DNA of 43,076 nt from Pseudomonadota bacterium (GTDB lineage Bacteria > Pseudomonadota > Alphaproteobacteria > Acetobacterales > Acetobacteraceae): the NCBI GenBank assembly GCA_021781835.1, contig JAJXWD010000023.1:1-43076 (forward strand), given 5' to 3'. Both the position numbers and the translations under genes were made by a program. Below, piece by piece: positions 985 through 12,751 of the stretch; within the stretch, counting starts at the first letter, position 1; each line of letters opens with the position of its first letter. A model generated the notes under the pieces. The model saw only the letters and a list, made by a program, of their open reading frames with translations, did not search any database and was not told the DNA's origin.

Positions 985-1776
985 ATGAACATCGTGACCC
1001 CGCAAAACGACCCCTGGACCGTGGCCGGGCGCAGCTTCGCCTCGCGACTCGTGGTGGGGACGGGCAAATACAAGGATTTCGAGACCACGGCCGCGGCCAT
1101 CGAGGCTTCGGGCGCCGAGATGGTGACGGTGGCGGTGCGGCGGGTCAATCTCTCGGACCGCAACGCGCCGATGTTGCAGGATTTCGTCAGCCCGCAGCGT
1201 TATACCTACCTGCCCAACACGGCCGGCTGCTTTACCGCCGAGGAGGCGGTGCGCACGCTGCGCCTCGCCCGTGAGGCGGGGGGGTGGAATCTGGTCAAGC
1301 TCGAGGTGCTGGGGCCGCCGCCCACCCTCTACCCCGATATGGCCGCCACGCTGCTGGCCGCCGAGGCGCTGATCAAGGACGGGTTCGAGGTGATGGTCTA
1401 TTGCGCCGACGACCCGGTGGCGGCCAAGCGGCTCGAGGATATGGGCTGTGTCGCCATCATGCCGCTGGGCGCGCCCATTGGCTCCGGGCTTGGGGTGCAG
1501 AACCCGCTGATGATCCAGAAGATCATCGAGCAATCCAGGGTGCCGGTTTTGGTGGATGCGGGGGTGGGCACGGCGTTTGACGCCACCTTTGCCATGGAGC
1601 TGGGCTGCGATGCGGTGCTGGTCAATTCGGCCATCGCCATGGCCGATGACCCGGTGCTGATGGCGCGCGCCATGAAGGCGGGGGTGGAGGCCGGGCGGCT
1701 GGCTTACCGCGCCGGGCGGATACCGCGCCATGGCTTCGCCAGCGCCTCCTCGCCCATGACGGGGCTGATCCGCTGA
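985..1776 (+). CDS. thiG: Thiazole synthase
   Basis: A 263-residue TIM-barrel enzyme that forms the thiazole phosphate of thiamine from deoxyxylulose phosphate, dehydroglycine and ThiS thiocarboxylate. Family motifs in order: [36 protein letters not shown] (with the Schiff-base lysine), [31 protein letters not shown] and [15 protein letters not shown]. The ATG at 985 follows thiS after four bases, so both form one unit. Neither thiO/thiH nor thiE is in the window, so the dehydroglycine source must be encoded elsewhere. Confidence 0.93.
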
Positions 1777-2393
1777 AGGCTGCGCTGGCCGCGCTGCCTG
1801 AAATCGGGGCGAATTTCATCGCCCCGTGGCTGGTTTATGAGCTGTGCGACCCGCGGCTGGGAGATACCGGGGCGCTGATGGCCTCGGCGATGCCGCCGCT
1901 TTTGTGGAGCCTGGTCGAGCTGGCGCGGGTGCGGCGGGTGGATGCGGTGTCCATCGTGGTGGTGGCGAGCATTGTGCTGACCGTGGGGGCGACCGCGCTG
2001 GGCGGCTCGGCGCGCATGATCCAGGTGCGCGACGCGCTGGTGACCGGCAGCGTGGGGCTGCTGTTTTTGCTCAGCCTGCCGCTCAAGCGCCCGCTGATTT
2101 TTTATCTGGCCCGCGCCGCCATGGCCCGGCGAACCGAGGGCGGGGAGCGGGCTTATGAGGCGATCTGGGACCAGCCCGGCGTGCCCGAGGCTTTCATGTT
2201 TCTCACCTGGCTGTGGGGGCTGGGGCTGATGGCGCAGACCGCGCTGCTGTGCGGGCTGGCTTATGTCTGGCCGATCGGGCGGTATTTGCTGCTCTCGCCG
2301 GTGATTTCGTGGGCGGCCTTCGGGCTGCTGTTTCTGGCGAGCTTTCGCTACATGGCCAGGCACCCGGCGGCGCGCGCGATTGTCGGGCGGTGA
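1773..2393 (+). CDS. VC0807-family multispanning membrane protein
   Basis: A hydrophobic protein of about 170-206 residues with several membrane segments. Motifs such as [20 protein letters not shown]-like text and [18 protein letters not shown] match the uncharacterised VC0807 family. The first ATG in frame is at 1878, but family-like sequence ([22 protein letters not shown]) is already readable from about 1797. No in-frame ATG, GTG or TTG is seen upstream close to thiG. A CTG at 1773 overlaps the thiG stop codon (CTGA), so a rare CTG start or an error is possible. The function is unknown; the neighbours give no clear hint. Confidence 0.65.
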
Positions 2394-2459
2394 GGGCGCC
2401 GCGCGGTTGTAATCGCGCCGTGACTTCCGGCGCGGGGGGGCGGATGCTAGAGCGGTGAT

Positions 2460-4121
2460 GTGGATCACGTCCTGACCATCATGTTCGGTCTGCCCGGCGC
2501 GGGGATGCAGCTGCGTCTCGACCCGCTCTCGCTGTTGTTTCTGGTGCTGCTCACCCCCCAGATGGTGGCCGGCGCGCTCGCCGGCGAGGCGCGCAGCCTG
2601 ACCTATTGGCTGTTTGCCCTCGGCATGGTGCTGGCGGTGACGGCGGCTTCGGCCTTCACGCTCATTTTCGGGTTTGAGCTGATGAGCGCGGCCTCGTGGC
2701 TTTTGGTGCTCCGGGGCGACCAGAAGCCGGCCACGCTCTATGTGGGCATTGCCATTTTCTCGGCCGCCTGTCTGGTGCCGGCGCTGTTTTTGCCCGCCTC
2801 CTCGCTGGCTTTTGTGCTGGTGGTGCTGGGGGCGGGCGCCAAGGCCGGGCTGGCGCCGCTGCATTCCTGGCTGCCCAAGGCCCACCCGGCGCCGCCGGCC
2901 GGGGTTTCGGCGCTGATGTCGGGGGGGATGATCAAGGTCGCGCTCAGCGTCATCATCCGCGAGGGGTTCATCACCCTCGACCCCGCCTTGCAGCCCTGGT
3001 GGGGCAATGTGCTGATGACGGCGGGGGTGGCTTCGGTGTTCATCGGCGCGCTCAGGGCCATGCTGGAAACCGAGATGAAGGTGCTGCTGGCCTGCTCGAC
3101 GGTGGAGCATGCCGGGCTGATCGCCGTGGGGCTGGGGCTGGCGCTGCGCGCCAAGGCCATGGGCGATGCCAGCCTGACCGCGCTGGGGCTGGAGGGCGCG
3201 CTGCTGTGCGCGCTGGCCCATGCGCTCTACAAGCCGCTGCTGTTTATTGGCGCGGGCGAGGTGAAGCACGCCACGGGCACGGCCTCGCTGGATTGGCTGG
3301 GCGGGCTGATGCGCTCGATGCCCAGGCTCTCGGGGCTGATGCTGCTGGCCGCCAGCGGCATGGCCGCGCTGCCGCTGGGGCCCGGATTCGCGCCGGAGTT
3401 TTTGCTGCTGCATGCCGCGCTGGCGGCTGCGGGCACGGGCGGCATTGTCGCGCGGATTGGATTCAGCGCGCTGCTGGCGGTGCTGGGGCTCTCGGCCGCG
3501 CTGGCTTTGGGCGCGGCGGTGAAGCTGATCGGCGTGGGGTTTTTGGGCCGGCCGCGCTCGTTGCAGGCCGCCGCCGCCGAGGAGCCGGGCGGCCTGGCGC
3601 TGGCCGGCATGGCGCTGCTGGGCGTGCTGATGGTGCCGCTCGCCCTGGTGCCGGGGGAGGTTTTGCGCCTGATGGCGCCGGTGGTGCGCGAGCTGGCCCC
3701 CAACGCCGCGCTGGCGCCGCTGGGCTATGCGCCGCTGCCGCTGCTGGGGCTGGGGCTGATGGTGGCCGTGGGCGCGGGCTTTGGGCTGCACCGCTTTGGC
3801 GTGCGCGGCACGCGCGGCGCCGCCACATGGATGGGCGGGTTTGGCAAGCCGCCCGTGTGGCTGCCCTTTGGCGACCCCGCCACCCAGCCGACCGCCACCG
3901 GCTTCGCCGAGCCGGTGGCGCGCGCCATTGGGCGGGGCGTGCTGCCCGATGACGCCGACCCCGCCGAGCTGCTGGTGCTGGCGCCGCTCTACCGGCTGCA
4001 CCTCAAAGGCGTGCGGCTGGCCGAGAAGCTGCGGCGCGCCACCATCAGGGAGCGGCTGGCGTTTATCTTCGCCGCCTTGGTGCTGTTTTTGCTCGCCCTT
4101 GGGCTGCTGGGGGGCGGGTGA
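2460..4121 (+). CDS. hyfB: Hydrogenase-4 subunit B-like antiporter-type membrane protein
   Basis: A 553-residue inner-membrane protein of the NuoL/M/N-MrpA-HyfB group, the presumed ion-translocating arm of complex-I-like machines. It shows a conserved acidic helix (FGFELMSAASW), the lysine motif GAKAGLAPLHSWLPKAHP, SALMSGGMIKVAL and STVEHAGLIAVGLG. The start is a GTG at 2460, whose first base is the last base of an out-of-frame ATG. It is the first gene of a six-gene string whose members overlap or abut, so co-translation of one complex is likely. Subunit naming follows order and similarity to hydrogenase-4. The catalytic activity of this complex is not established (see the large subunit). 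Confidence 0.85.
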   Translation: MDHVLTIMFGLPGAGMQLRLDPLSLLFLVLLTPQMVAGALAGEARSLTYWLFALGMVLAVTAASAFTLIFGFELMSAASWLLVLRGDQKPATLYVGIAIFSAACLVPALFLPASSLAFVLVVLGAGAKAGLAPLHSWLPKAHPAPPAGVSALMSGGMIKVALSVIIREGFITLDPALQPWWGNVLMTAGVASVFIGALRAMLETEMKVLLACSTVEHAGLIAVGLGLALRAKAMGDASLTALGLEGALLCALAHALYKPLLFIGAGEVKHATGTASLDWLGGLMRSMPRLSGLMLLAASGMAALPLGPGFAPEFLLLHAALAAAGTGGIVARIGFSALLAVLGLSAALALGAAVKLIGVGFLGRPRSLQAAAAEEPGGLALAGMALLGVLMVPLALVPGEVLRLMAPVVRELAPNAALAPLGYAPLPLLGLGLMVAVGAGFGLHRFGVRGTRGAATWMGGFGKPPVWLPFGDPATQPTATGFAEPVARAIGRGVLPDDADPAELLVLAPLYRLHLKGVRLAEKLRRATIRERLAFIFAALVLFLLALGLLGGG

Positions 4122-5092
4122 TGGCGCAGATTTTGCCCGTGCTGCTCGCCGTGCTGGCCAATCTGGTGCATGCCGTGCTGCTGTTTGCCCTCGCCCCCGG
4201 GCTGATGGGGGGGGTGAGCAAAATGCGCGCCTGGGCGCTGGGGCGGCGCGGCGCGCCGGTGATGCAGCCTTACCGCCAGCTCTATAAGCTGCTGCGCAAG
4301 ACCACGCTGATTCCAGAAACCGCCACGGATGCTTACCCGTACTGGCCGCTGGCGTGTTTTTTGAGCGTGAGCGTGGCCGGGCTGCTGATTCCGAGCTTTG
4401 CCACCGGCATGGTCACGGCGCCGCTCTCGGATTTCATCACCCTGATCGGGCTGTTCGCGCTCGCGCGGGCGGCCACCATGCTGGGCGGGCTGGAGACCGG
4501 GTTCAGCTTTGGCGGGGCAGGGGCGCAGCGCGAGGCACTTTATGGCGTGTTCGCCGAGGGCGCGCTGCTGGTGACGATTTTGACCTTCGCGCTGATCGCC
4601 CATGCGACGACGGTTGATGGCATCGCGGTGGCGTTTCGGGATGGGCATATCGGGATTTCGGTGTCGCTGGCGTTCGCGCTGGCGGCGACGCTGGCGGTGG
4701 CGCTGACCGAGACCGGGCGCATTCCCACCGATAATCCGGCCGGGCACCTGGAATTGTCGATGGTGCATGAGGCGATGCTGCTGGAATATTCGGGGCGGTA
4801 TCTGCTGCTGTTTGAGTATGCCGCCATGCTGCGGCTGATGGTGTGGATGAGCCTGATCGGCGCGGTGTTTTTGCCCTTTTGGATGGGCCGCGCGGGGGAT
4901 GTGCTGTCTTGGCCGCTGGGGCTGGTGCTGTGGGCGGGCAAGCTTGGGGGGATGGCGGTGATCTTGCCGCTGTTCGAGATTTCGAGCGCCAAGATGCGCG
5001 TGTTCCGGGTGCCGGAATTTTTGGGGGTCGCCATGCTGCTGGGCGCGCTGGCCGGGGTGTTTTTGTTCGTGGCCGAGAGGATCGGCTCATGA
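4121..5092 (+). CDS. hyfC: Hydrogenase-4 subunit C-like (NuoH/HycD-type) membrane protein
   Basis: A 323-residue integral membrane protein related to NuoH and HycD, which anchor the soluble arm of complex I or formate hydrogenlyase to the membrane. Visible features are PYRQLYKLLRKTTLIPE, the acidic loop LTETGRIPTDNPAGHLEL and MVHEAMLLEYSGRYLLL, the last two being the characteristic quinone- or coupling-site region of this family. It starts at the ATG overlapping the preceding stop by one base (TGATG). About eight membrane helices are apparent. Confidence 0.85.
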   Translation: MAQILPVLLAVLANLVHAVLLFALAPGLMGGVSKMRAWALGRRGAPVMQPYRQLYKLLRKTTLIPETATDAYPYWPLACFLSVSVAGLLIPSFATGMVTAPLSDFITLIGLFALARAATMLGGLETGFSFGGAGAQREALYGVFAEGALLVTILTFALIAHATTVDGIAVAFRDGHIGISVSLAFALAATLAVALTETGRIPTDNPAGHLELSMVHEAMLLEYSGRYLLLFEYAAMLRLMVWMSLIGAVFLPFWMGRAGDVLSWPLGLVLWAGKLGGMAVILPLFEISSAKMRVFRVPEFLGVAMLLGALAGVFLFVAERIGS

Positions 5093-5748
5093 GCCTGACC
5101 TTCTCGCTCGCGCATCTGATGGGCGGGGTGATTTTGCTCGCCGCCTTCTCGCTGCTCTCGCAGCGGCGGCTGGCGGCGATGATCACGCTCTACCAGGTGC
5201 AGGCGCTGGTGCTCTCGGCCGCGGCCTTTTGGCAGGGCTATGCCCAGGGCGAGGTTAATCTCTACCTCACCGGGCTGATCACGCTGATCATCAAGGCGAT
5301 CATCTTGCCGCTCAGCCTGCGCGAGATCGTGCTGCGCTTTAACCTCATGCGCGCGGTGGAGACCGCCATGCCGGTGGCGGTCTCGATGATTTTGGGGGTG
5401 GCGCTGATTGGCGTGGCGGTGCTGGTGGTGCTGCCGACCACGCCGGGCAATGTCTCGCTGACGCGCGAAGACCTCGCCATCGCGCTCTCGGTGGTGCTGC
5501 TGGGGCTGCTGATGATGACCACGCGGCGCGGCGCGCTGGCGCAGATCATCGGCTTTCTCTCAACCGAGAACGGGCTGGTGCTGGCGGCGATCGGCATGCC
5601 GGGGATGCCGTTCGTGGCCGAGTTCTCGGTGGCGCTGCTGGTGCTGCTGGCGTTTTTGGTGGTGGGGGTGTTTTTGTTCCGTATCCGCGAGCATTTTGAC
5701 AGCCTCGACCTCTCGGGGCTCGAGCAGATCGAGCGGAGGGGGCGGTGA
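5089..5748 (+). CDS. hyfE: Hydrogenase-4 subunit E-like membrane protein
   Basis: A 219-residue membrane protein. The N-terminal half resembles MrpC/NuoK-type subunits (LYQVQALVLSAAAFWQG), and the C-terminal half adds further helices ending in FLFRIREHFDSLD, as in HyfE. It presumably contributes to proton or sodium translocation. The ATG at 5089 overlaps the hyfC stop by four bases, and its own stop overlaps the next gene by four bases. Confidence 0.82.
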   Translation: MSLTFSLAHLMGGVILLAAFSLLSQRRLAAMITLYQVQALVLSAAAFWQGYAQGEVNLYLTGLITLIIKAIILPLSLREIVLRFNLMRAVETAMPVAVSMILGVALIGVAVLVVLPTTPGNVSLTREDLAIALSVVLLGLLMMTTRRGALAQIIGFLSTENGLVLAAIGMPGMPFVAEFSVALLVLLAFLVVGVFLFRIREHFDSLDLSGLEQIERRGR

Positions 5749-7199
5749 ACCTGGCGCTGCTGCCTGTGGTCCTGGCCGGGCTCTCGGTGCCGTTTTTGGG
5801 CACGCTGGGCACGCCCCAGCAAGGCGCGGTGGCCAATGCGGCCGTGAGCCTGGTGGTGTTTTTGCTCACCTTGCTGGCGTTTTGGGGGCCGGGCGCCGGG
5901 CTGCTGCATGCCGATGAGCTGGGGCTGGTGTTTGGCGCGGTGACCGGGTTTGCCGGGTTTACCACGGCGGTGGCCAATATTTTTTACGTGCGGGGCGCGG
6001 CCGTGCGGCTGGGGGTGCGGCGCTGGCGGCTTTACCATGTGATGTGCCAGATTATCTTGGGGGCCACGCTGGCGGGGCTTTATGCCGATAATATCGGGCT
6101 GCTCTGGGCCGCGATGGAGGCGGCGACCATTGCCGCGACGCTGGCGGTGAGCCTGCCGCGCACGGCCTCGGCGCTGGAGGCGGCCTGGAAATATTTCATT
6201 CTGGGGGGCATTGGCATCGCGCTCGCGCTGTTTGGCACCATGCTGGTGTATCTGGCCGCGCAGCCGGCGCTGGGGCCGGGCCTGGCCGCCATGAGCTTTG
6301 CCCAGCTCGCCAATGCCGCGCCGCGCATGGATGGCTCGCTGCTGACCTTGGCTTTTGTGTTTTTGCTGTTTGGCTACGGCACCAAGGCCGCGCTGGCGCC
6401 GCTGCATGGCTGGCTGCCCGATGCCTATGCCGAGGGGCCGGCGCCGCTGACCACCTCGCTCTCGGGGCTGACGCTCAATGTCGCGCTGCTGGCGATCTTG
6501 CGTTTCAGCCATTTGCTCGGCGCCAACCATGCCAGCCATGGCGGGGCCATGGCGCCGGGGCCGTTTCTCATTTTACTCGGGCTGGTGTCGATTTTCCTGA
6601 CCGGGTTTTCGCTCTCCAGGCGGCGGGATTCGCGGCGGTTTTTCGGGTTTTCCTCGATCGAGCATTCGGGGGTGGCGGCGTTTGCGTTTGGCATTGGCGG
6701 GCCGGTGGCTATTTTTGGCGGGCTGCTGCATCTGCTGTTGCACACGCTGATCAAATCGGCGCTGTTTCAGGCGCTGATCCGCGCCGCCGCGCTGCGCGGC
6801 TCGACCGCGCCGGGGCATTATGCATTTTCGCATCTGAGGGGGCTGGCGCATACCAATAAAATCACCGCGCTGGCGCTGGGCGGGTGTATTTTCGCGCTTA
6901 CCGGCCTGCCGCCCTCGGGGCTGTTTGCCTCGGAGTTCATCATTGTCAGCCAGACGATTCAGCGTGAGCCGCTGGCCTCGCTGCCGCTGGGGCTGGGGCT
7001 GCTGATTTGCGCGGTGGCGATCTTGCGCAATCTCGGGCCGCTGATTTTGGCGCCCGCCCCCCACCATGCCAAGCCCGTGAAGACGGCGCGCAGCACTTAT
7101 CTGGTGCTGGTGCATCTGGCTTTGGCGTTTCTGCTCGCCTTTGCCATGCCGCCGGTGCTCTATGGGCTGCTCAGCGCGGTCGCGGCGGGGTTGTCATGA
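5745..7199 (+). CDS. hyfF: Hydrogenase-4 subunit F-like antiporter-type membrane protein
   Basis: A 484-residue NuoL/N-like membrane protein, the second antiporter-type subunit of the operon. Key pieces are AAMEAATIAATLAVSLP (acidic helix), GYGTKAALAPLHGWLPDAY (conserved lysine), TSLSGLTLNVALLAILRF, SSIEHSGVAAFAFG and LTGLPPSGLFASEF. It starts with GTG overlapping the hyfE stop (GTGA). With HyfB this gives two ion-channel-like subunits. A separate HyfD homologue is absent. Confidence 0.85.
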   Translation: MNLALLPVVLAGLSVPFLGTLGTPQQGAVANAAVSLVVFLLTLLAFWGPGAGLLHADELGLVFGAVTGFAGFTTAVANIFYVRGAAVRLGVRRWRLYHVMCQIILGATLAGLYADNIGLLWAAMEAATIAATLAVSLPRTASALEAAWKYFILGGIGIALALFGTMLVYLAAQPALGPGLAAMSFAQLANAAPRMDGSLLTLAFVFLLFGYGTKAALAPLHGWLPDAYAEGPAPLTTSLSGLTLNVALLAILRFSHLLGANHASHGGAMAPGPFLILLGLVSIFLTGFSLSRRRDSRRFFGFSSIEHSGVAAFAFGIGGPVAIFGGLLHLLLHTLIKSALFQALIRAAALRGSTAPGHYAFSHLRGLAHTNKITALALGGCIFALTGLPPSGLFASEFIIVSQTIQREPLASLPLGLGLLICAVAILRNLGPLILAPAPHHAKPVKTARSTYLVLVHLALAFLLAFAMPPVLYGLLSAVAAGLS

Positions 7200-8566
7200 T
7201 ACGTGAACTCTCGGCCACGGAATGGCAGGCGAAGCAGGGCCGGTTTGTGGCGCTGTGGACGGATGCCAATTTCGCCTATGCGCTCTACCACCCCGGCGAG
7301 CTGGTGTTTGTGGCGCTGGAGCAGGGCGGCTACCCGGCGCTGGCGCATAAGGGGGCGGGGTGGTTCATGCGCCTCGCGCGGGATTTGAACGGCCATGTGG
7401 CGCGCGGGTTTGAGGCCGCGCCCCCCGCCATAGACCATGGCGCGGCACCCGATGGCAGCGGGCCGTGGCCCGAATTTGCCCGCCACCCGGCCGAGGGCGC
7501 GCACCAGGTGGCGGTGGGGCCGGTGCATGCCGGGATCATCGAGCCGGGGCATTTCAGGTTTGACGTGAAGGGCGAGCAGGTGCTGCGCCTGACCGCCCGG
7601 CTGGGCTATGAGCATAAGGGCATTTTGGGGCTGATGCGCGGCAAGTCGCCCGCCCATGCGGCGCGTTTCGCGGCGCGCGTTTCGGGCGATGCGACGGTGG
7701 CCCACAGCCTGGCCTTTGCCCACGCCGCCGAACAGGCCGCGGGCCTGACCCCGCCGCCCCGGGCGGTGAATTTGCGCGCCATCATGGCCGAGCTGGAACG
7801 GCTGGCCAACCATGCCTCGGACGTGGGCGCCATGGCCGGGGATGCCGGGTTTGCGTTTTTGGACGCCCGTTTCGCGCTGCTGCGCGAGCTGGTGTGCCAG
7901 GCCGCCCAGGCCGCCTTTGGCCACCGGCTGATGATGGACCGGGTGGTGCCGGGCGGCGTGGCCGATGATTTGGCCGAAGGCGGGCGGGAGGCGATTTTGG
8001 CGGCCCTGGGCGCGGTGGAGGCCGAGCTGCCGAGCCTGCGCCGGGTGTTTGAGGATTATGCCAGCCTCCAGGACCGGGTGGTGGGCACCGGGCTGGTGCC
8101 CCCGGCGCTTGCCGAGGCCTATGCCGCCGGGGGGTATGTGGGCCGCGCCTCGGGGCAGAGGGGAGATGCCAGGCTGAGCCCAGGCTATGCGCCTTATGAA
8201 ACCTTTGCGCTGTACGTGCCGGTGGAGCAGGCGGGGGACGTGGCCGCGCGGATCAAGGTGCGGCTTGAGGAAATTCCCGAGAGCATCAGGCTGGTGCGGG
8301 AATGTCTGGCGAGCCTGCCGGGCGGGGCGCTGTGCCTGGCCCCAGACCCAGCCACAGGCATGGGGCTGGGGGTGGCCGAGAGCTTTCGGGGGGCGGTGTG
8401 GTACTGGCTGCGGCTGGATGCCGGGCTGATCGCGGATATATTCATCGCCGATGCCAGCACGCTGCACTGGCCGCTGCTGGAACATGCCGCCACCACCTCG
8501 ATTTTGGCCGATTTTCCGCTCATCAATAAATCCATCAACGGGTCTTATGCGGGGGGGGATCTGTAA
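7196..8566 (+). CDS. hyfG: Hydrogenase-4 large-subunit-like protein lacking the Ni-binding cysteines
   Basis: A 456-residue soluble subunit with a short NuoC-like N-terminal part followed by a NuoD/HycE-type large subunit (RLGYEHKGILGLMRG, ERLANHASDVGAMAGDAGF). In true [NiFe] hydrogenases the first metal motif reads RxCGxC. Here the aligned stretch is RVSGDATVAHS at residues 161-171, with Ser163 and Ala166 in the cysteine places. The C-terminal DPCxxC motif is likewise replaced by DFPLINKSINGSYAGGDL. The Ni-Fe site therefore cannot be built in the usual way. No maturation protease site or hyp genes are seen. The ATG at 7196 overlaps the hyfF stop. The likely class is an energy-converting-hydrogenase-related (Ehr) complex; its substrate is unknown. 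Confidence 0.83.
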   Translation: MIRELSATEWQAKQGRFVALWTDANFAYALYHPGELVFVALEQGGYPALAHKGAGWFMRLARDLNGHVARGFEAAPPAIDHGAAPDGSGPWPEFARHPAEGAHQVAVGPVHAGIIEPGHFRFDVKGEQVLRLTARLGYEHKGILGLMRGKSPAHAARFAARVSGDATVAHSLAFAHAAEQAAGLTPPPRAVNLRAIMAELERLANHASDVGAMAGDAGFAFLDARFALLRELVCQAAQAAFGHRLMMDRVVPGGVADDLAEGGREAILAALGAVEAELPSLRRVFEDYASLQDRVVGTGLVPPALAEAYAAGGYVGRASGQRGDARLSPGYAPYETFALYVPVEQAGDVAARIKVRLEEIPESIRLVRECLASLPGGALCLAPDPATGMGLGVAESFRGAVWYWLRLDAGLIADIFIADASTLHWPLLEHAATTSILADFPLINKSINGSYAGGDL

Positions 8567-9120
8567 TGGTCTGGAAAACCACGATACGCCACATACTGGG
8601 CCGCGCCGCCCCGGCGCTGCGCCCAGACCCGGCGCTGGCCAAGGAGATGAGCGCCAGGCTGCAGGCGGGGGGAGCACGGAAGCTCGGCCGGGCGCTTAGC
8701 ATACGCCATGTGGCCGCGGGCAGCTGCAATGGCTGCGAGTTGGAACTGCGCGCCATACAAAACCTGATTTACGACCTGACCCAATATGGGCTGAGCTTTG
8801 TGGCCAGCCCCAGACATGCCGATATTTTGCTGGTGACCGGCGTGAGCAACCGCAACATGGCCCAGGCCCTGCGCCAAGCCCGCACCGCCATGCCCGAGCC
8901 AGCCCTGGTGGTGGCCGTGGGCGATTGCGCGCTCGATGGCGGGGTTTTTAAAGGCAGCCCCGTGGTGCTGGGCGGCGCCAAGGCGGTGGTGCCCGTGGAT
9001 TTGGTGGTGGCCGGATGCCCGCCTAACCCAGCCGAGATTATTGCCGGGCTGGTGGCCCTGGTGGATGCCCATGACACGAAAATGCCGCCAAAGCCGAAAA
9101 TACTTCCCGGTATGACTTGA
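8566..9120 (+). CDS. hyfI: Hydrogenase-4 small-subunit-like (NuoB-type) Fe-S protein
   Basis: A 184-residue NuoB/HycG/HyfI homologue expected to hold the proximal [4Fe-4S] cluster. The cluster ligands appear intact: SCNGCELEL (Cys54, Cys57), VAVGDCALDGG (Cys121) and VVAGCPPNP (Cys151). The start ATG overlaps the hyfG stop by one base (TAATG). It is the last gene of the operon; a tRNA follows 37 bases later. No HyfH/NuoI-like ferredoxin subunit and no HyfA or HyfJ is encoded nearby, so the electron entry partner is missing or unlinked. Confidence 0.87.
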   Translation: MVWKTTIRHILGRAAPALRPDPALAKEMSARLQAGGARKLGRALSIRHVAAGSCNGCELELRAIQNLIYDLTQYGLSFVASPRHADILLVTGVSNRNMAQALRQARTAMPEPALVVAVGDCALDGGVFKGSPVVLGGAKAVVPVDLVVAGCPPNPAEIIAGLVALVDAHDTKMPPKPKILPGMT

Positions 9121-9157
9121 ATTAGTTTTCCGCCTGTCATACACGGGCCGCGCCCTA

Positions 9158-9233
<76 letters not shown>

Positions 9234-9319
9234 AGGCTTTCAACACATTGAAAACGCTGAATATTTTCGGTGTCGTCCCGCGAATGTGACACACGCTTGT
9301 GCCACACGGGAAGACGCTC

Positions 9320-9718
9320 ATGGCGATGTGTTCGTACGTCGAGAAACGGCGGCAAAGATATTATTTCCGCGCCCGGCTACCGGGGGAAATGGTGGGCATG
9401 CTCGGACGCACGCATGTCGTAGGCTCACTGCTCACCGGTGATTCCCGGATCGCAAAAATCCGGGCATCACGATTTTATTTTGTGCTTGCAGGGTTCCTGA
9501 GCATGCTCAGTCTCAGGATGAGAGACAATGCGCACAGCTCGGAGATGCTGGACGCGAGGGCCGCGGCCCTCGCGCAGAAGGCGTTTGAGCTGGGGTGCCG
9601 GTACGAGGCGGAGCAGGAGCGGCTGCGTCAGCGCCATGACGCCGAACGGGAGCAACTGCGGCGGCATTGTGAGGCCGAGTTGCAGGCCATGATCAGAAGT
9701 ATGGAGCGGGATACATGA
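9320..9718 (+). pseudogene. Truncated tyrosine-recombinase-like N-terminal fragment
   Basis: A 132-residue reading frame beginning MAMCSYVEKRRQRYYFRARL. The text YYFRARLPGEM followed by VVGSLLTGDSRIAKIRASRF resembles the small N-terminal domain found in front of some phage-type integrases (RYYFRRRVP, SLxTxDxxxAR). The rest is a charged helix (ERLRQRHDAEREQLRRHCEA), probably a coiled coil, and no catalytic R-H-R-Y domain is present. An alternative GTG start exists at 9299. Its position 86 bases after tRNA-Glu fits an integrase left behind by an old genomic island. It could instead be a small DNA-binding protein; I regard a remnant as more likely. Confidence 0.5.
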
Positions 9719-10059
9719 CGCTGGAAACCATCGCGCCCGTGAGCCATACTCCCAACGTTGGCTTGCCAGAAATGGCCGCCTGACAACGCAGCCAACGCTG
9801 CTCAGAACGCCGCTTCTACACCACGCCAAGGGGCATGATCTGAGATGGGTCGTGTTCCCGTCCGTGGTGTAGGAGACCGGTGATCGGCCTGCCGTCGCAA
9901 CCGCCACGCGTCTTGCGGGGGCGAGCCGATGGGCGGCCGCCGGGGCGGTTTTTGGGTAGCATTGGTTTGCGAACCTCAACGCGAACCCAAGGATTGGAGA
10001 TGGAACTCACCTTGAGCAAGCGGAAGGTTCCCCGGTCAGTCTGGCGGGCTGAGCTGGGG
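9719..10059. other. Gene-poor scar after tRNA-Glu
   Basis: No intact gene is recognisable here. The stretch holds a possible transposase remnant on the minus strand (see 9816-10019) and otherwise unassigned sequence up to the first 108-base repeat. It lies between the integrase-like fragment and the aromatic-degradation genes, so decayed mobile DNA is the most plausible origin. Confidence 0.5.
9816..10019 (-). pseudogene. Possible degenerate IS5-family transposase fragment
   Basis: A short minus-strand reading frame contains PMLPKNRPGGRP, which resembles the PLLPKxRPGGRP text near the N-terminus of IS5-type transposases. It then jumps to GRPITGLLHHGREHD, which is reminiscent of the GRPLxxxLTxGQxHD segment from the middle of such enzymes. 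If real, a large internal deletion has joined the two parts. No inverted repeats or DDE residues could be assigned. Recognition is by eye only and weak. Confidence 0.33.
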
Positions 10060-10167
10060 GCTTAGAGCGGGATGCGTTATGACGCACCCGCTCTAGCTAT
10101 ATTTTAACGATCAATTTCATTGGTTTAGCTTACGTCTGTCGACTCAATCTAAACCAATATTGATCTA
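10060..10167. repeat. 108-base direct repeat, copy 1
   Basis: This segment recurs at 14087-14194 in the same orientation with two adjacent base differences (GCTAT against GTCAT). It contains two hairpins. Hairpin one is AGAGCGGGATGCGT and ACGCACCCGCTCT around a TATG loop (10064-10094, one bulged A). Hairpin two has ATTGGTTTAG and CTAAACCAAT arms (10119-10158) enclosed by GATCAA and TTGATC (10109-10165). Its right end supplies the TAG stop codon of the mhpC-like gene on the minus strand. It codes for nothing recognisable; a REP- or MITE-like intergenic element is likely. Confidence 0.9.
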
Positions 10168-11007
10168 GCCGCGCAAAAACTCCAGCACCATGCGGTTGAA
10201 ATCAGCCGCATGTTCCCATTGTGCCCAATGGCCGCAGCGGCTGAACATGTGCAACTGTGCGTTTTGCAGGCCCCACAGCAGGCGCAGCCCCACGTCGAAG
10301 GGCACGAACCGGTCGTCGCGCCCCCAGATGATGAGGGTGGGCGCTGCAATCTCGCCCAGCCTGTGCCCGTAATCGGTGAATTGCCTGGGGTTGGCGGTGC
10401 TGCTCTTTACGAAATTTTCGAGATGCTCGCGGTTTTGCAGCATCGCCTTCAGCCGGGCCTGATAAAGCTCATCGGTGAGCGATGAGGCATCGAACACGAA
10501 CACCGACATCATGCGCTTCAAGTTTTCGATGGTCGGTTCGCGGTAAAGCTGACCGATGAGCTTTATGCCCTCGGTTGGCATGGGAACAAACTGGCTGGGA
10601 CCGCCGGTGCCGCCGCCCATGAGAACAAGCCGCCCAATGCGCGAAGGGTTGGCCAGCGCAAAGGCAACCGTTGAATGCGCACCCATGGAATTGCCGATGA
10701 TATGCGCGTGCTCAATGCCCAGATGGTCGAGCAGCCCCAATAGCGTGGCGGCGTTGAGGTCTGAGCGCGAGCCGGTATTTATCACGGGCGAGGATTTGTT
10801 CCAGCCTGGGCAATCCATCAGCACAACGCGGTAGCCCGCCTGCACCAGCGGCTCGACGTTGCGTGAAAAATTGGTCCAACCCGAGGCGCCAGGGCCCGAG
10901 CCGTGCAGCATGACCACGGTCTCGGCGCCGGCCTCGGTGTCGTTATAATGAATGCGGAATGCGCCGATTTGGGCGAAGCGCGAGGTGGCGCTCTCGGTAA
11001 TCGTCAT
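10165..11007 (-). CDS. mhpC: Alpha/beta hydrolase of meta-cleavage pathways (MhpC/BphD/HsaD type)
   Basis: A 280-residue carbon-carbon bond hydrolase that would split the ring-fission product of a catechol (for MhpC, to hydroxypentadienoate and succinate). It shows the oxyanion motif [17 protein letters not shown], the nucleophile elbow [10 protein letters not shown] (Ser107), the acid in [11 protein letters not shown] and the histidine in CGHWAQWEH. This catalytic triad arrangement is typical. The start is the ATG at 11007, overlapping the flavin reductase stop by four bases; an upstream in-frame start exists but would add unrelated residues. It is the last gene of the operon, and its TAG stop lies inside the 108-base repeat. 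The specific substrate is inferred from the mhpB-like neighbour. Confidence 0.85.
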
Positions 11008-11561
11008 GTGTGGTTCCTCAGGCGGTGGAAGCCGCCGTTGAAATAAAGCAGGGGCTTGGCCTCCACACGCTCGCGCGTGGCCAAAACCTCGCACAGGGCG
11101 GCATAATGTGTGCTCTCATCGTAGAGTTTTATCACCCGCGTATCGAACGTGGTGAGCGCATTGACCAGCACTGGCGCGCCCGAAGCGGCCGTGCCCCAAT
11201 CGCCAAAGCCAAAGCGGGCGGGGCCGTGCACGTCTTTCATCATGCCGGCGAAGGCGCGGGCAATGTCTTCCTGGTCATCGGCCAGCACGTTCACGCTCAG
11301 ATTGCCCAGGCGCAAAATCAGCTCGGCGGCGGCAACGTTCTTGTTTACAAACGCCACCAGCCTGGGCGGGTCGGCCGTGACCGAAACCACGGCCGTGGCG
11401 GTAAGACCGGCGCGCTCTTGGTTGTCACCCGTGGCCAGAATAGTTACGCCGGCGGCGAAATGGCGCATGCCAAAGCGATGAGCCTCGGGGGAGACCAGGT
11501 CCAACCCGCTAAGCGCGGGGTTGGGTTGCCAGTCGATGAGCTGGTTAATCTCAGTGCTCAC
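11004..11561 (-). CDS. Flavin reductase component of a two-component monooxygenase
   Basis: A 185-residue protein of the HpaC/HsaB flavin-reductase domain family, supplying reduced flavin to a partner oxygenase. Visible features are [20 protein letters not shown] followed by [14 protein letters not shown] and [19 protein letters not shown], with a conserved [13 protein letters not shown] strand towards the C-terminus. It overlaps both neighbours by four bases, directly after the oxygenase gene, so the pairing is convincing. NADH or NADPH preference cannot be read from the sequence. Confidence 0.85.
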
Positions 11562-12751
11562 GGTTTGGCTCCAAACGGGTTGGGGTAGGGAAGCTTGTTG
11601 CCCAGCAAATGTCCGCCCAGCAGATCGCCGATATTATCCTGGTTCTGGGTGATATGGTTGGCGCCCACCAGAATGTCGCGCATCTGGCGTTGAATGGGCG
11701 AGCTCAGCCACACGCCGCGCGTCGAGGTTTTTTTGAACAGCATATGCGCGGCCTCGAAGCACTCGCCGCCGGTGAACTGGTTGGTGGCAAAATGGTTGAT
11801 GCGCACATCAAGCGGCACCATCTCGCCGCGTTGGGCGTAGGTGTAGGCTTCCTCGGTATTGTGCAGAATGCGTGCGGTACAGGCTAAAATTTTGGCCGTG
11901 GCCTCGCCCAGGCGTTGTTTGATATAGGGGTCGTTCACGGCCGCGCCCACCGCTTGGTTTATGTTCTGACGCGGCATCATGTGCTCAACGTATAGATCGG
12001 CCATGCCACGCGCCATGCCAATGATGACCGACGACACCGCCGCATAGAACACGTAAAAAAACGGTACTTTATAGAGATTCTCGACATGGCCGTGCGAGGT
12101 TTCATCGTAAGAGGCAATGGTGTGCGAGCGGTAATCAGGCACGAAAACCTCTTTCACAATCAGCTTCTTGCTGCCCGTGCCCGCCAGCCCGACGACATAC
12201 CAGTCATCGACAATCTCAAATGCTTCGCGGTTTACAAGGAAAGAGCGGAACACCTGCTCTCCGTTTTCCTCAACGCGCCCGCCCAAAAAGGCGCCGCCCT
12301 CGGCATAGTCGCAGCCCGATGAGGTAAGCCATTCGCCGTTCAGAACATAGCCGCCCTCAACCTTCTTCACCGTGCCAAACGGGGCGTAAGAGGAAGACAC
12401 CAGCGTGCTGTCATCCTTGCCCCACAGCTCATGGCCGACTTGATCGCCCAGCAATCCCACCTCGAACGGATGTACGCCCAGCACCATCACAATCCACGCG
12501 CTCGAGGGGCAGCCGCGCGCCAGTTCCATCAGCACCCGGTTGAGCACGTTGGGGTTCATCTCGTAACCGCCAAAGCGCTTGGGCTGCAAAATGCGGAAGA
12601 ACCCGGCTTCCTGGAAATCCTTAACGGTTTCGGGCAGCACGTGGCGGGCTTTTTCGCAGGCTTCGGCGCGCGCGCGCAGCACGGGCACCAGCTTGCGGGC
12701 ACGGTCGACAATTTCATCCGCGGACGGGATGATCGATGTGATGGCGTTCAT
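11558..12751 (-). CDS. Acyl-CoA-dehydrogenase-fold flavin monooxygenase, oxygenase component (HsaA-like)
   Basis: A 397-residue group D flavin monooxygenase, the oxygenase partner of the flavin reductase encoded next. The fold is that of acyl-CoA dehydrogenases (ETVKDFQEAGFFRILQPKRFGG, PSSAWIVMVLGVH, LNGEWLTSSGCDYAEG, VVGLAGTGSKKLIV), as in HsaA and related phenol ortho-hydroxylases. In this operon it would hydroxylate a 3-hydroxyphenylpropanoid to a catechol for MhpB. That role is inferred; E. coli uses the unrelated single-component MhpA for this step. It overlaps the mhpB and reductase genes by four bases each. Confidence 0.82.
   Translation of the reverse strand: MNAITSIIPSADEIVDRARKLVPVLRARAEACEKARHVLPETVKDFQEAGFFRILQPKRFGGYEMNPNVLNRVLMELARGCPSSAWIVMVLGVHPFEVGLLGDQVGHELWGKDDSTLVSSSYAPFGTVKKVEGGYVLNGEWLTSSGCDYAEGGAFLGGRVEENGEQVFRSFLVNREAFEIVDDWYVVGLAGTGSKKLIVKEVFVPDYRSHTIASYDETSHGHVENLYKVPFFYVFYAAVSSVIIGMARGMADLYVEHMMPRQNINQAVGAAVNDPYIKQRLGEATAKILACTARILHNTEEAYTYAQRGEMVPLDVRINHFATNQFTGGECFEAAHMLFKKTSTRGVWLSSPIQRQMRDILVGANHITQNQDNIGDLLGGHLLGNKLPYPNPFGAKP

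Follow-up and report, generated by a model that had tools for sequence, protein, structure and literature searches.

The window analysed here, a stretch of 43,076 nucleotides from an alphaproteobacterium of the family Acetobacteraceae that resembles an Acidocella, contains an operon that is, by its sequence features, a six-subunit energy-converting-hydrogenase-related (Ehr) complex. Ehr complexes are an already known kind, and the window operon is a further member. In its large subunit, the nickel ligands of [NiFe] hydrogenases are absent, and a new set of polar residues, conserved across the family, occupies their positions. We judge from the sequences of relatives that this loss is not decay.

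Organization of the operon

Six open reading frames lie at positions 2460-9120 of the window, with successive overlaps of 4 bases and, for the final pair, 1 base (Table 1). The initial annotation had described six overlapping hydrogenase-4-like genes without nickel ligands, and both the ORF coordinates and an alignment with HycE agree with this. The HyfB-like subunit starts at the position of NuoL residue 63; its N-terminal shortfall relative to other HyfB proteins is about 62 (NuoL alignment) to 95 residues (NCBIfam HyfB alignment). The short form is also found in both genus relatives checked, namely genome G007 and Acidocella aquatica (loci L143 and L048).

Table 1. Coordinates of the operon, its motifs and its boundary in the window
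Feature	Positions	Strand	Remarks
HyfB-like antiporter subunit	2460..4121	+	553 aa
HyfC/HycD/NuoH-like membrane subunit	4118..5092	+	324 aa
HyfE-like membrane subunit	5089..5748	+	219 aa; NF008556 match, under its curated cut-off
HyfF-like antiporter subunit	5745..7199	+	484 aa
HyfG/HycE-like large subunit (NuoD-like), nickel ligands absent	7196..8566	+	456 aa
RVSGDA, codons 161-166, replacing HycE RVCGIC	7676..7693	+	alignment
NGSYAGGDL and stop, codons 448-456	8537..8566	+	alignment
HyfI/HycG/NuoB-like small subunit	8566..9120	+	184 aa; Cys 54, 57, 121 and 151 for one [4Fe-4S] cluster
tRNA-Glu	9158..9233	+	immediately 3' of the operon and outside it; cluster boundary

Relationship to known complexes

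The operon encodes homologues of HyfB, HyfC, HyfE, HyfF, HyfG and HyfI of Escherichia coli hydrogenase 4 (Hyf) and hydrogenase 3 (Hyc/FHL), systems that include the closest solved large and small subunits. It differs from them in that counterparts of HyfA, HyfD, HyfH and HyfJ are missing from the cluster, and the large subunit has neither the CxxC pairs nor the C-terminal extension. Thus, three marks of active group 4 [NiFe] hydrogenases are lacking: the nickel ligands, a place among these enzymes in the tree and an operon-encoded polyferredoxin (HyfH/HycF). With complex I, the operon shares NuoB-, NuoD-, NuoH- and NuoL/M-like parts and proton-channel residues, but the cluster has no counterparts of NuoE, F, G or I, and it lacks the His and Tyr with which NuoD binds quinone. 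Moreover, its small-subunit cysteines are spaced CxxC as in hydrogenases, unlike those of complex I.

Published Ehr complexes are known to us by description. In excerpts of the literature, hydrogenase-like subunits are combined with complex I-like membrane subunits, as in the window operon, and examples are Geobacter sulfurreducens GSU0739-45, those of Nitrospirales and the Rv0081-Rv0087 region of Mycobacterium tuberculosis (PMC7894505, PMC12342949, PMC10284858, PMC6728331). The same excerpts state that the [NiFe] ligands are missing or that the hydrogenase is non-functional, and they leave the function unassigned. Ehr is further described from about half of the compared Nitrospirales genomes (PMC12342949) and from M. 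tuberculosis (PMC6728331). In the window operon, a CxxC-less large subunit, a small subunit for one [4Fe-4S] cluster and antiporter- and NuoH-like membrane subunits occur together. The Ehr-type assignment of the initial annotation is upheld, since features of Ehr are present and those of a hydrogenase are lacking.

Replacement of the nickel ligands

Alignment with HycE places R161-V-S163-G-D165-A166 opposite RVCGIC, so Ser163 and Ala166 do stand at the RxCGxC cysteine positions, as had been claimed. Opposite HycE DPCYSC is N448-G449-S450-Y451-A452-G453. The segment DFPLINKS (439-446), previously taken as the DPCxxC equivalent, had been read in the wrong register; it begins nine residues before NGSYAG and corresponds to HycE DAPLIIGS. 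Hence neither CxxC pair (RxCGxC or DPCxxC) is intact in the window's large subunit, whose gene ends at the position of the HycE maturation cleavage site.

Counting the window, R-x-SGD is present in 84 of 85 large subunits and the terminus NxSYxGxDL in 80 of 85; the nickel ligands are replaced in the same manner in 84, and the single exception (L084) has a cysteine at 163 only. Because the identical substitutions are conserved in relatives, and because the large subunit is carried by 24 of the 25 genomes searched in the window's genus, the substitutions are not due to chance or sequence error. An AlphaFold model of the large subunit has the HycE/NuoD fold (mean pLDDT 85.1), and among solved structures its sequence and fold are closest to E. 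coli HycE. However, pLDDT is below 50 at residues 90-141 and 450-456, i.e., exactly in the pocket, and we therefore did not use pocket distances from this model.

Other functional residues are retained. Cys54, Cys57, Cys121 and Cys151 of the small subunit are all confirmed; the first three are kept in 81 of 81 small subunits and Cys151 in 80, with a gap in the remaining one, in line with the initial annotation. Proton channels in complexes of this superfamily involve a TM5 Glu, a TM7 Lys and a TM12 Glu, along with acidic positions of NuoH. The three former residues are retained in both antiporter subunits (HyfB-like and HyfF-like), as are the four acidic NuoH positions in the HyfC-like subunit. 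In complex I, a His and a Tyr of NuoD bind quinone; the window's large subunit has Ile115 and Gly164 there.

Family, tree and gene neighbourhoods

Our family counts are based on 80 loci, the best 80 of 580 confirmed relatives found via large-subunit patterns, and on four further loci from plasmid records, giving 84 loci. All six genes occur in the same order in 65 of the 84. In our searches, this branch of the family turned up commonly among rhizobia and azospirilla, as well as in the window's genus. Six-gene operons of the same large-subunit family have the window's gene order in Azospirillum, Rhizobium and Bradyrhizobium (by tblastn) and in Burkholderia and Allomeiothermus (by annotation). 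In the records of these five genera, HyfB is 49 to 133 residues longer than in the window, and large-subunit identity is 36-51%. These operons are annotated as hydrogenase 4 or as NADH-quinone oxidoreductase.

In the tree, 16 family rows (the window and 15 others, including Burkholderia and Allomeiothermus) form one clade with support 100/100, and ten active-hydrogenase and NuoD rows fall apart from it; the tree program warned of long branches (Allomeiothermus, NuoCD) and of uneven composition in four rows. The final tree leaves out a wrongly extracted NuoD row and the very long branch of G050, and adds three NuoD rows. Intact CxxC pairs and placement among active group 4 hydrogenases had been set in advance as refutations of the initial annotation, and neither came out. 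The initial interpretation, a putative ion-pumping redox module, is partly supported by the retained proton-channel residues and by the position outside the active group 4 large subunits used.

When 1243 ORFs of at least 70 codons from 85 regions were clustered, the most widespread neighbour family reached only 12 regions. It is a small protein that, by eye and annotation, reads as a helix-turn-helix regulator. Queries with HyfA, HyfH, HycB, HycF, NuoE, NuoF, NuoI, FDH, FixA, FixC, FixX, ferredoxin and NfnA matched only 4 of 84 loci, where flanks reach at least 3 kb on both sides in only 53 and many loci are short. L065 has HyfA- and HycF-like matches, the latter about 5 kb away and the sole HycF-like match in the 84 loci; L077 and L099 have weak matches to FDH-like molybdoenzymes, and L112 a weak NfnA-like match. 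NuoE or NuoF was near the operon in none of the 84. Segments with CxxCxxCxxxC occur beyond the cluster in 3 of the 84 loci and within its span in 9; the whole window has none (six frames, stop-free stretches of at least 40 codons). No electron-entry gene thus recurs next to the operon in these 84 loci, which is consistent with the unlinked or missing partner initially proposed and fits the expectation for a soluble donor.

FNR/FixK control of the operon is suggestive only: with at most one mismatch, boxes occur upstream of hyfB in 6 of 73 regions versus a background of 1.2%, and two are identical in box and place, while the window has none at one mismatch.

Candidate electron partners

The initial annotation was right that no HyfH/NuoI-like protein is present in the window, but it gave too much weight to the missing hyp genes, because the window genome also encodes an intact [NiFe] hydrogenase with a maturation protease and has a single HypD match on a different contig (C17). 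The genome search that it called for also found ferredoxins and a formate dehydrogenase alpha subunit (C19). Complex I of the window genome is encoded on contig C49.

Some evidence comes from G194, an alphaproteobacterial draft genome of 946,554 bases (~0.95 Mb) in 49 contigs. It retains the six Ehr genes with the family motifs, whereas its complex I is reduced to broken fragments of NuoB, NuoC and NuoD, with zero matches to NuoE, F, G, H, I, J and K in the draft. Neither a PF00384 molybdopterin oxidoreductase nor a PF00115 oxidase was found in this draft, an E. coli CydA query was likewise without match, and there is no NifH motif. Its ORFs of at least 40 codons with CxxCxxCxxxC encode fumarate reductase FrdB, a FixX-like protein, GlpC and one 64-aa dicluster ferredoxin. 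As a genome below 1 Mb that kept Ehr and lost complex I, G194 narrows the possible electron partners to few; given a draft of 49 contigs, absences there are not proof.

We looked for these candidates in a class sample of 385 genomes, 32 of them with Ehr. The G194-type dicluster ferredoxin is enriched with Ehr (19 of 385 genomes, 7 of them with Ehr), and it was unmatched at the cut-off used in 25 of the 32 Ehr genomes. Stand-alone FixX occurs in 12 genomes of the sample, including 7 of the 32 with Ehr, where 1.0 would be expected in a test that ignores relatedness. Despite this enrichment and the lead from G194, we rejected FixABCX as an obligatory partner: FixX is found in just 2 of 25 genomes of the window's genus, and Ehr in 24. 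An Nfn-like enzyme was also rejected, as its N-terminal part matches 7 of 385 genomes and only 2 of the 32 with Ehr.

Possible functions

The model that we favour, tentatively and at slightly below even confidence, is a stand-alone proton pump that would pass electrons from a soluble carrier to quinone. The carrier, most likely a ferredoxin, would dock on the small subunit at the place of HyfH/HycF/NuoI; electrons would travel via its only [4Fe-4S] cluster to a quinone located in the rebuilt pocket or close by, and this transfer would drive protons through HyfC, HyfF and HyfB. The complex would act like a minimal complex I without the NADH-oxidising and ferredoxin-like arms. This model is supported by the uniform replacement of nickel ligands, the cluster cysteines, the proton-channel residues, the gene order, the absence of a recurrent partner and G194. 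Against it stand the replacement of the quinone His/Tyr by Ile115/Gly164, the uncertainty of the structure model in the pocket and the fact that no tested ferredoxin or ferredoxin-reducing enzyme tracks Ehr.

The complex might also run in reverse, with proton-motive force pushing quinol electrons to ferredoxin for nitrogenase or NADPH formation. In the window genome, nifA, nifB, nifV and a nifS-like gene adjoin fixABCX, with two G194-type ferredoxins on the same contig, and the co-occurrence of Ehr with stand-alone FixX points the same way; however, the relatedness caveat, the scarcity of FixX in the genus and the lack of a NifH motif in G194 make this direction unlikely. A pump driven by formate, fed by an unlinked formate dehydrogenase, appears improbable. 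Such a pairing (FDH-Ehr) is proposed for Margulisbacteria and Saganbacteria in PMC6349859, Ehr subunits of G. sulfurreducens are more abundant on formate according to PMC7894505, and the window genome has the alpha subunit noted above. Yet G194 has Ehr with no molybdopterin oxidoreductase match, and the FDH-like matches near Ehr loci number two, both weak.

It is similarly doubtful that Ehr has no redox activity and serves as a channel for protons or cations, or that it is an assembly remnant. The catalytic ligands are gone and there is no known partner, but this would not account for the conservation of cluster cysteines and pocket residues, or for Ehr being kept in the reduced G194 genome after complex I was lost. 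Finally, a cryptic hydrogenase with another metal or ligand set would fit HycE as the nearest solved sequence and fold, but we regard it as highly improbable: all four ligands and the C-terminal extension are missing, the clade is separate from the active enzymes used, and Ehr expression in Nitrospira moscoviensis is reported not to increase with H2 (PMC12342949).

Implications

A bolder form of the favoured ferredoxin:quinone pump, which we consider rather unlikely as a whole, is that Hyf-type Ehr is self-sufficient and able to take the place of complex I. In G194, a FixABCX-like complex would split NADH electrons between quinol and reduced ferredoxin; the latter would be oxidised by Ehr, which would reduce quinone and pump protons, with fumarate reductase as the end point. 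If this is true, the complex I superfamily would have three kinds of terminal site: the nickel-iron site, the quinone site of complex I and the rebuilt pocket (Ser163, Asp165, Asn448, Ser450 and Asp455). The conserved pocket motif also serves as a simple marker that separates this family from true hydrogenases given like names in databases.

Identity of the complex

The six genes follow one another with overlaps of four or one bases, in the order HyfB, HyfC/NuoH, HyfE, HyfF, HyfG/HycE/NuoD (the large subunit) and HyfI/NuoB (the small subunit); these identities come from Pfam and NCBIfam, with all NCBIfam matches below the curated cut-offs. E. coli formate hydrogenlyase (FHL; 7z0s) is the best solved relative of both the large and the small subunit, and it is again the top Foldseek match of the predicted large subunit (TM-score 0.83 on the query). 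Among the matches listed, the best named one for the large subunit is from Acidocella aquatica (70% identity). We are dealing, almost certainly, with a nickel-free Hyf complex of the energy-converting-hydrogenase-related (Ehr) type.

This is a known kind of system, itself unsolved. Parts of PMC6728331 describe the functions of M. tuberculosis Rv0081-Rv0087 and EHR as yet to be determined, citing Marreiros et al. 2013 for EHR, and a passage of PMC12342949 gives the function of a Nitrospirales Ehr as unknown. An FDH-Ehr association is proposed in a portion of PMC6349859, and an extract of PMC7894505 reports Geobacter Ehr to be higher on formate.

HyfB starts at the equivalent of NuoL residue 63, so that about two N-terminal helices of other HyfB proteins are absent; this shortening is common to the window and two relatives of its genus (L142, L143), namely G007 and A. 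aquatica. A VC0807-family gene ends 66 bases 5' of hyfB and also precedes the G007 cluster; it was not found in the A. aquatica stretches examined (L048, L143).

Positions of the gene clusters discussed, within the window or the named locus
Feature	Sequence	Positions
VC0807-family gene	window	1878-2393
Six-gene Ehr cluster	window	2460-9120
hyfB	window	2460-4121
fixABCX and nif genes (L236)	G000:C29:66000-84000	
Hydrogenase 4/FHL-type operon (L131)	G004:C104:1000-16000	
Very divergent Ehr-like cluster (L132)	G050:C1:750000-766000	7375-12374
Second, divergent Ehr copy of another genome of the genus (L136)	G003:C76:5000-19000	1047-8100

An apparently rebuilt nickel pocket

The initial annotation had reported the loss of both nickel-binding motifs. 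The loss is borne out, with residues 161-166 (RVSGDA) aligning to HycE RVCGIC and 448-453 (NGSYAG) to DPCYSC; the second motif had been placed nine residues too early. Among 85 large subunits (the window and 84 loci, these being the best 80 of 580 confirmed relatives plus four plasmid records), the first motif reads SGDS in 74, SGDA in seven, SGDT in three and CGDS in one (L084). The exact end NxSYxGxDL occurs in 80 of the 85, and the other five deviate at one or two letters. Ser163, Asp165, Asn448, Gly453, Asp455 and Leu456 are invariant in one alignment (31 rows). A second (60 rows) shows no variation at Asp165, Asn448, Gly453 or Asp455, with Ser163, Ser450 and Leu456 conserved in at least 90%. 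Two more distant rows, compared separately, have Gly (Allomeiothermus) or Ala (Burkholderia) at position 163. Judged by this conservation, the pocket looks rebuilt and constrained rather than decayed.

The window's large subunit, like NuoD, ends in alignment with the last residue before what we take to be the HycE maturation cleavage site, and a maturation protease should therefore be unnecessary. The same genome (2.9 Mb in 75 contigs) encodes a hupD-type protease and a Hya/Hup-type [NiFe] hydrogenase whose large subunit has intact ERICGVC and DPCLAC motifs. The reported absence of hyp genes does not extend to this genome, which has hypD on contig C17. Deficient maturation is therefore not at issue.

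Distribution and phylogeny

Of the 25 genomes of the genus, 24 carry the large subunit, the exception (G010) being 83% complete. The search covered 40 close genomes, of which 24 fall in this genus; with the A. aquatica match above, we regard the source as an Acidocella. In a class-wide sample of 385 genomes, 35 pass E 1e-32, 32 of them at 4.2e-93 or better, and the remaining three (G045, G050, G177) are remote. The family extends to Azospirillum, Rhizobium, Bradyrhizobium and Burkholderia, where members lie on plasmids, and to the Deinococcota species Allomeiothermus silvanus. The order B-C-E-F-large-small is complete in 65 of the 84 loci. For 18 of the other 19, a contig ends inside the cluster; in the last, L050 from a Roseomonas MAG, the contig continues upstream of hyfC, but hyfB was not found in its normal position there. 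A genuine loss, a break and divergence are all candidate explanations.

As the initial annotation anticipated, the large subunit falls outside the active hydrogenases: sixteen members form a single clade (support 100/100) apart from E. coli HycE and HyfG, two further FHL-type proteins, two remote hydrogenases and four NuoD. In this tree the program flagged some rows for long branches and uneven composition.

Several other clusters were observed. L132, in the same family, has 39% (small subunit) and 25% (large subunit) identity to the window, different pocket residues (RINAVD, with the end SFGILSTGVDL), a HyfC-like ORF and additional unmatched ORFs. L136, from another genome of the genus, has 46% large-subunit identity and a full-length HyfB. 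The L131 operon, from a genome of the genus that also has Ehr, has intact nickel ligands and includes HyfD-like and HycH-like genes. L133 and L134 (G045 and G177, genomes of 1.2-1.4 Mb) encode a group 4-like large subunit with both CxxC pairs that stops right after DPCISCTER and so lacks a cleavable tail. In L133 it is followed by a 995-aa ORF, which by eye resembles pyruvate:ferredoxin oxidoreductase.

Putative electron and proton pathways

The small-subunit cysteines were correctly described as retained: Cys54, Cys57 and Cys121 occur in all 81 extracted sequences and Cys151 in 80, with a gap in the other. Where complex I has its quinone His and Tyr, the window's large subunit has Ile115 and Gly164. 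The two antiporter subunits, HyfB and HyfF, retain Glu in TM5, Lys in TM7 and Glu in TM12; in the window's HyfF the TM8 Lys is replaced by Arg. HyfC keeps equivalents of NuoH E157, D213, E220 and E228, and those of E36 and E216 are not kept. These antiporter and NuoH residues presumably serve in proton channels.

Candidate electron donors

No linked electron-entry partner recurs, in agreement with the initial annotation: among the 84 loci, 53 of which have flanks of at least 3 kb on both sides, queries with known electron-entry proteins match in four, differently each time, and no family of neighbouring genes is shared by more than 12 of the 85 regions. Separately, FNR/FixK-like palindromes (at most one mismatch) lie upstream of hyfB in 6 of 73 regions (L047, L050, L052, L056, L057, L110) versus about 0.9 expected.

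Elsewhere in the window genome, complex I is encoded on C49 (12 of 12 queried subunits, NuoA being outside the query set), while C19 carries a formate dehydrogenase alpha subunit and C15 a PhsA-like molybdoenzyme. The most informative genome in the partner search is the reduced alphaproteobacterial G194 (L149-L222; 946,554 bases, 33% G+C, listed completeness 100). It retains an Ehr cluster with intact motifs, over two contigs with hyfC spanning the gap, and of complex I it has fragments of nuoB, nuoC and nuoD only. Queries from E. coli and alphaproteobacteria gave no match to NuoE, F, G, H, I, J or K, and NuoL, M and N queries match only Ehr genes. Searches of G194 also found no PF00384 molybdopterin oxidoreductase, PF00115 oxidase, E. 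coli CydA match or NifH motif. Unless the draft misses them, Ehr there should not need complex I parts or formate dehydrogenase, which suggests a soluble carrier as electron donor, ferredoxin being the simplest candidate. G194 encodes a FixABCX-like operon, assigned by best matches that stay under the NCBIfam cut-offs, together with an Nfn-like fused protein, a single 64-aa dicluster ferredoxin, ATP synthase subunits, fumarate reductase, and GlpC and GlpB-like proteins; it could be an anaerobic symbiont. Membrane pyrophosphatase genes were also seen by eye.

Among the 385 genomes, stand-alone FixX occurs in 12, seven with Ehr versus 1.0 expected (Fisher p 8e-6), or five of ten once the two genomes that gave rise to the test are left out (p 4e-4); both p values ignore relatedness. 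The G194-type ferredoxin occurs in 19, seven with Ehr (p 4e-4). The Nfn-like protein occurs in seven, two with Ehr. Within the genus the FixX link fails (FixX 2/25, Ehr 24/25), the one further genome with FixX being G011. All 12 FixX genomes have the ferredoxin, and in the window genome fixABCX is adjoined by nifB, nifA, nifV and a nifS-like gene, with two dicluster ferredoxins nearby; the enrichment may thus stem from nitrogen-fixing genomes. No one partner accounts for every Ehr member.

That Ehr is a redox-driven proton pump supplied by a soluble carrier is a tentative proposal, to which we give slightly less than an even chance. The parts of the open-licence literature covered, including those of PMC2799521, PMC9973337, PMC10936413, PMC10284858, PMC6688271 and PMC10432482, did not tie Ehr to complex I loss in a reduced genome, and the novelty of this observation is not established. 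The G194 case offers a sharper handle on Ehr function.
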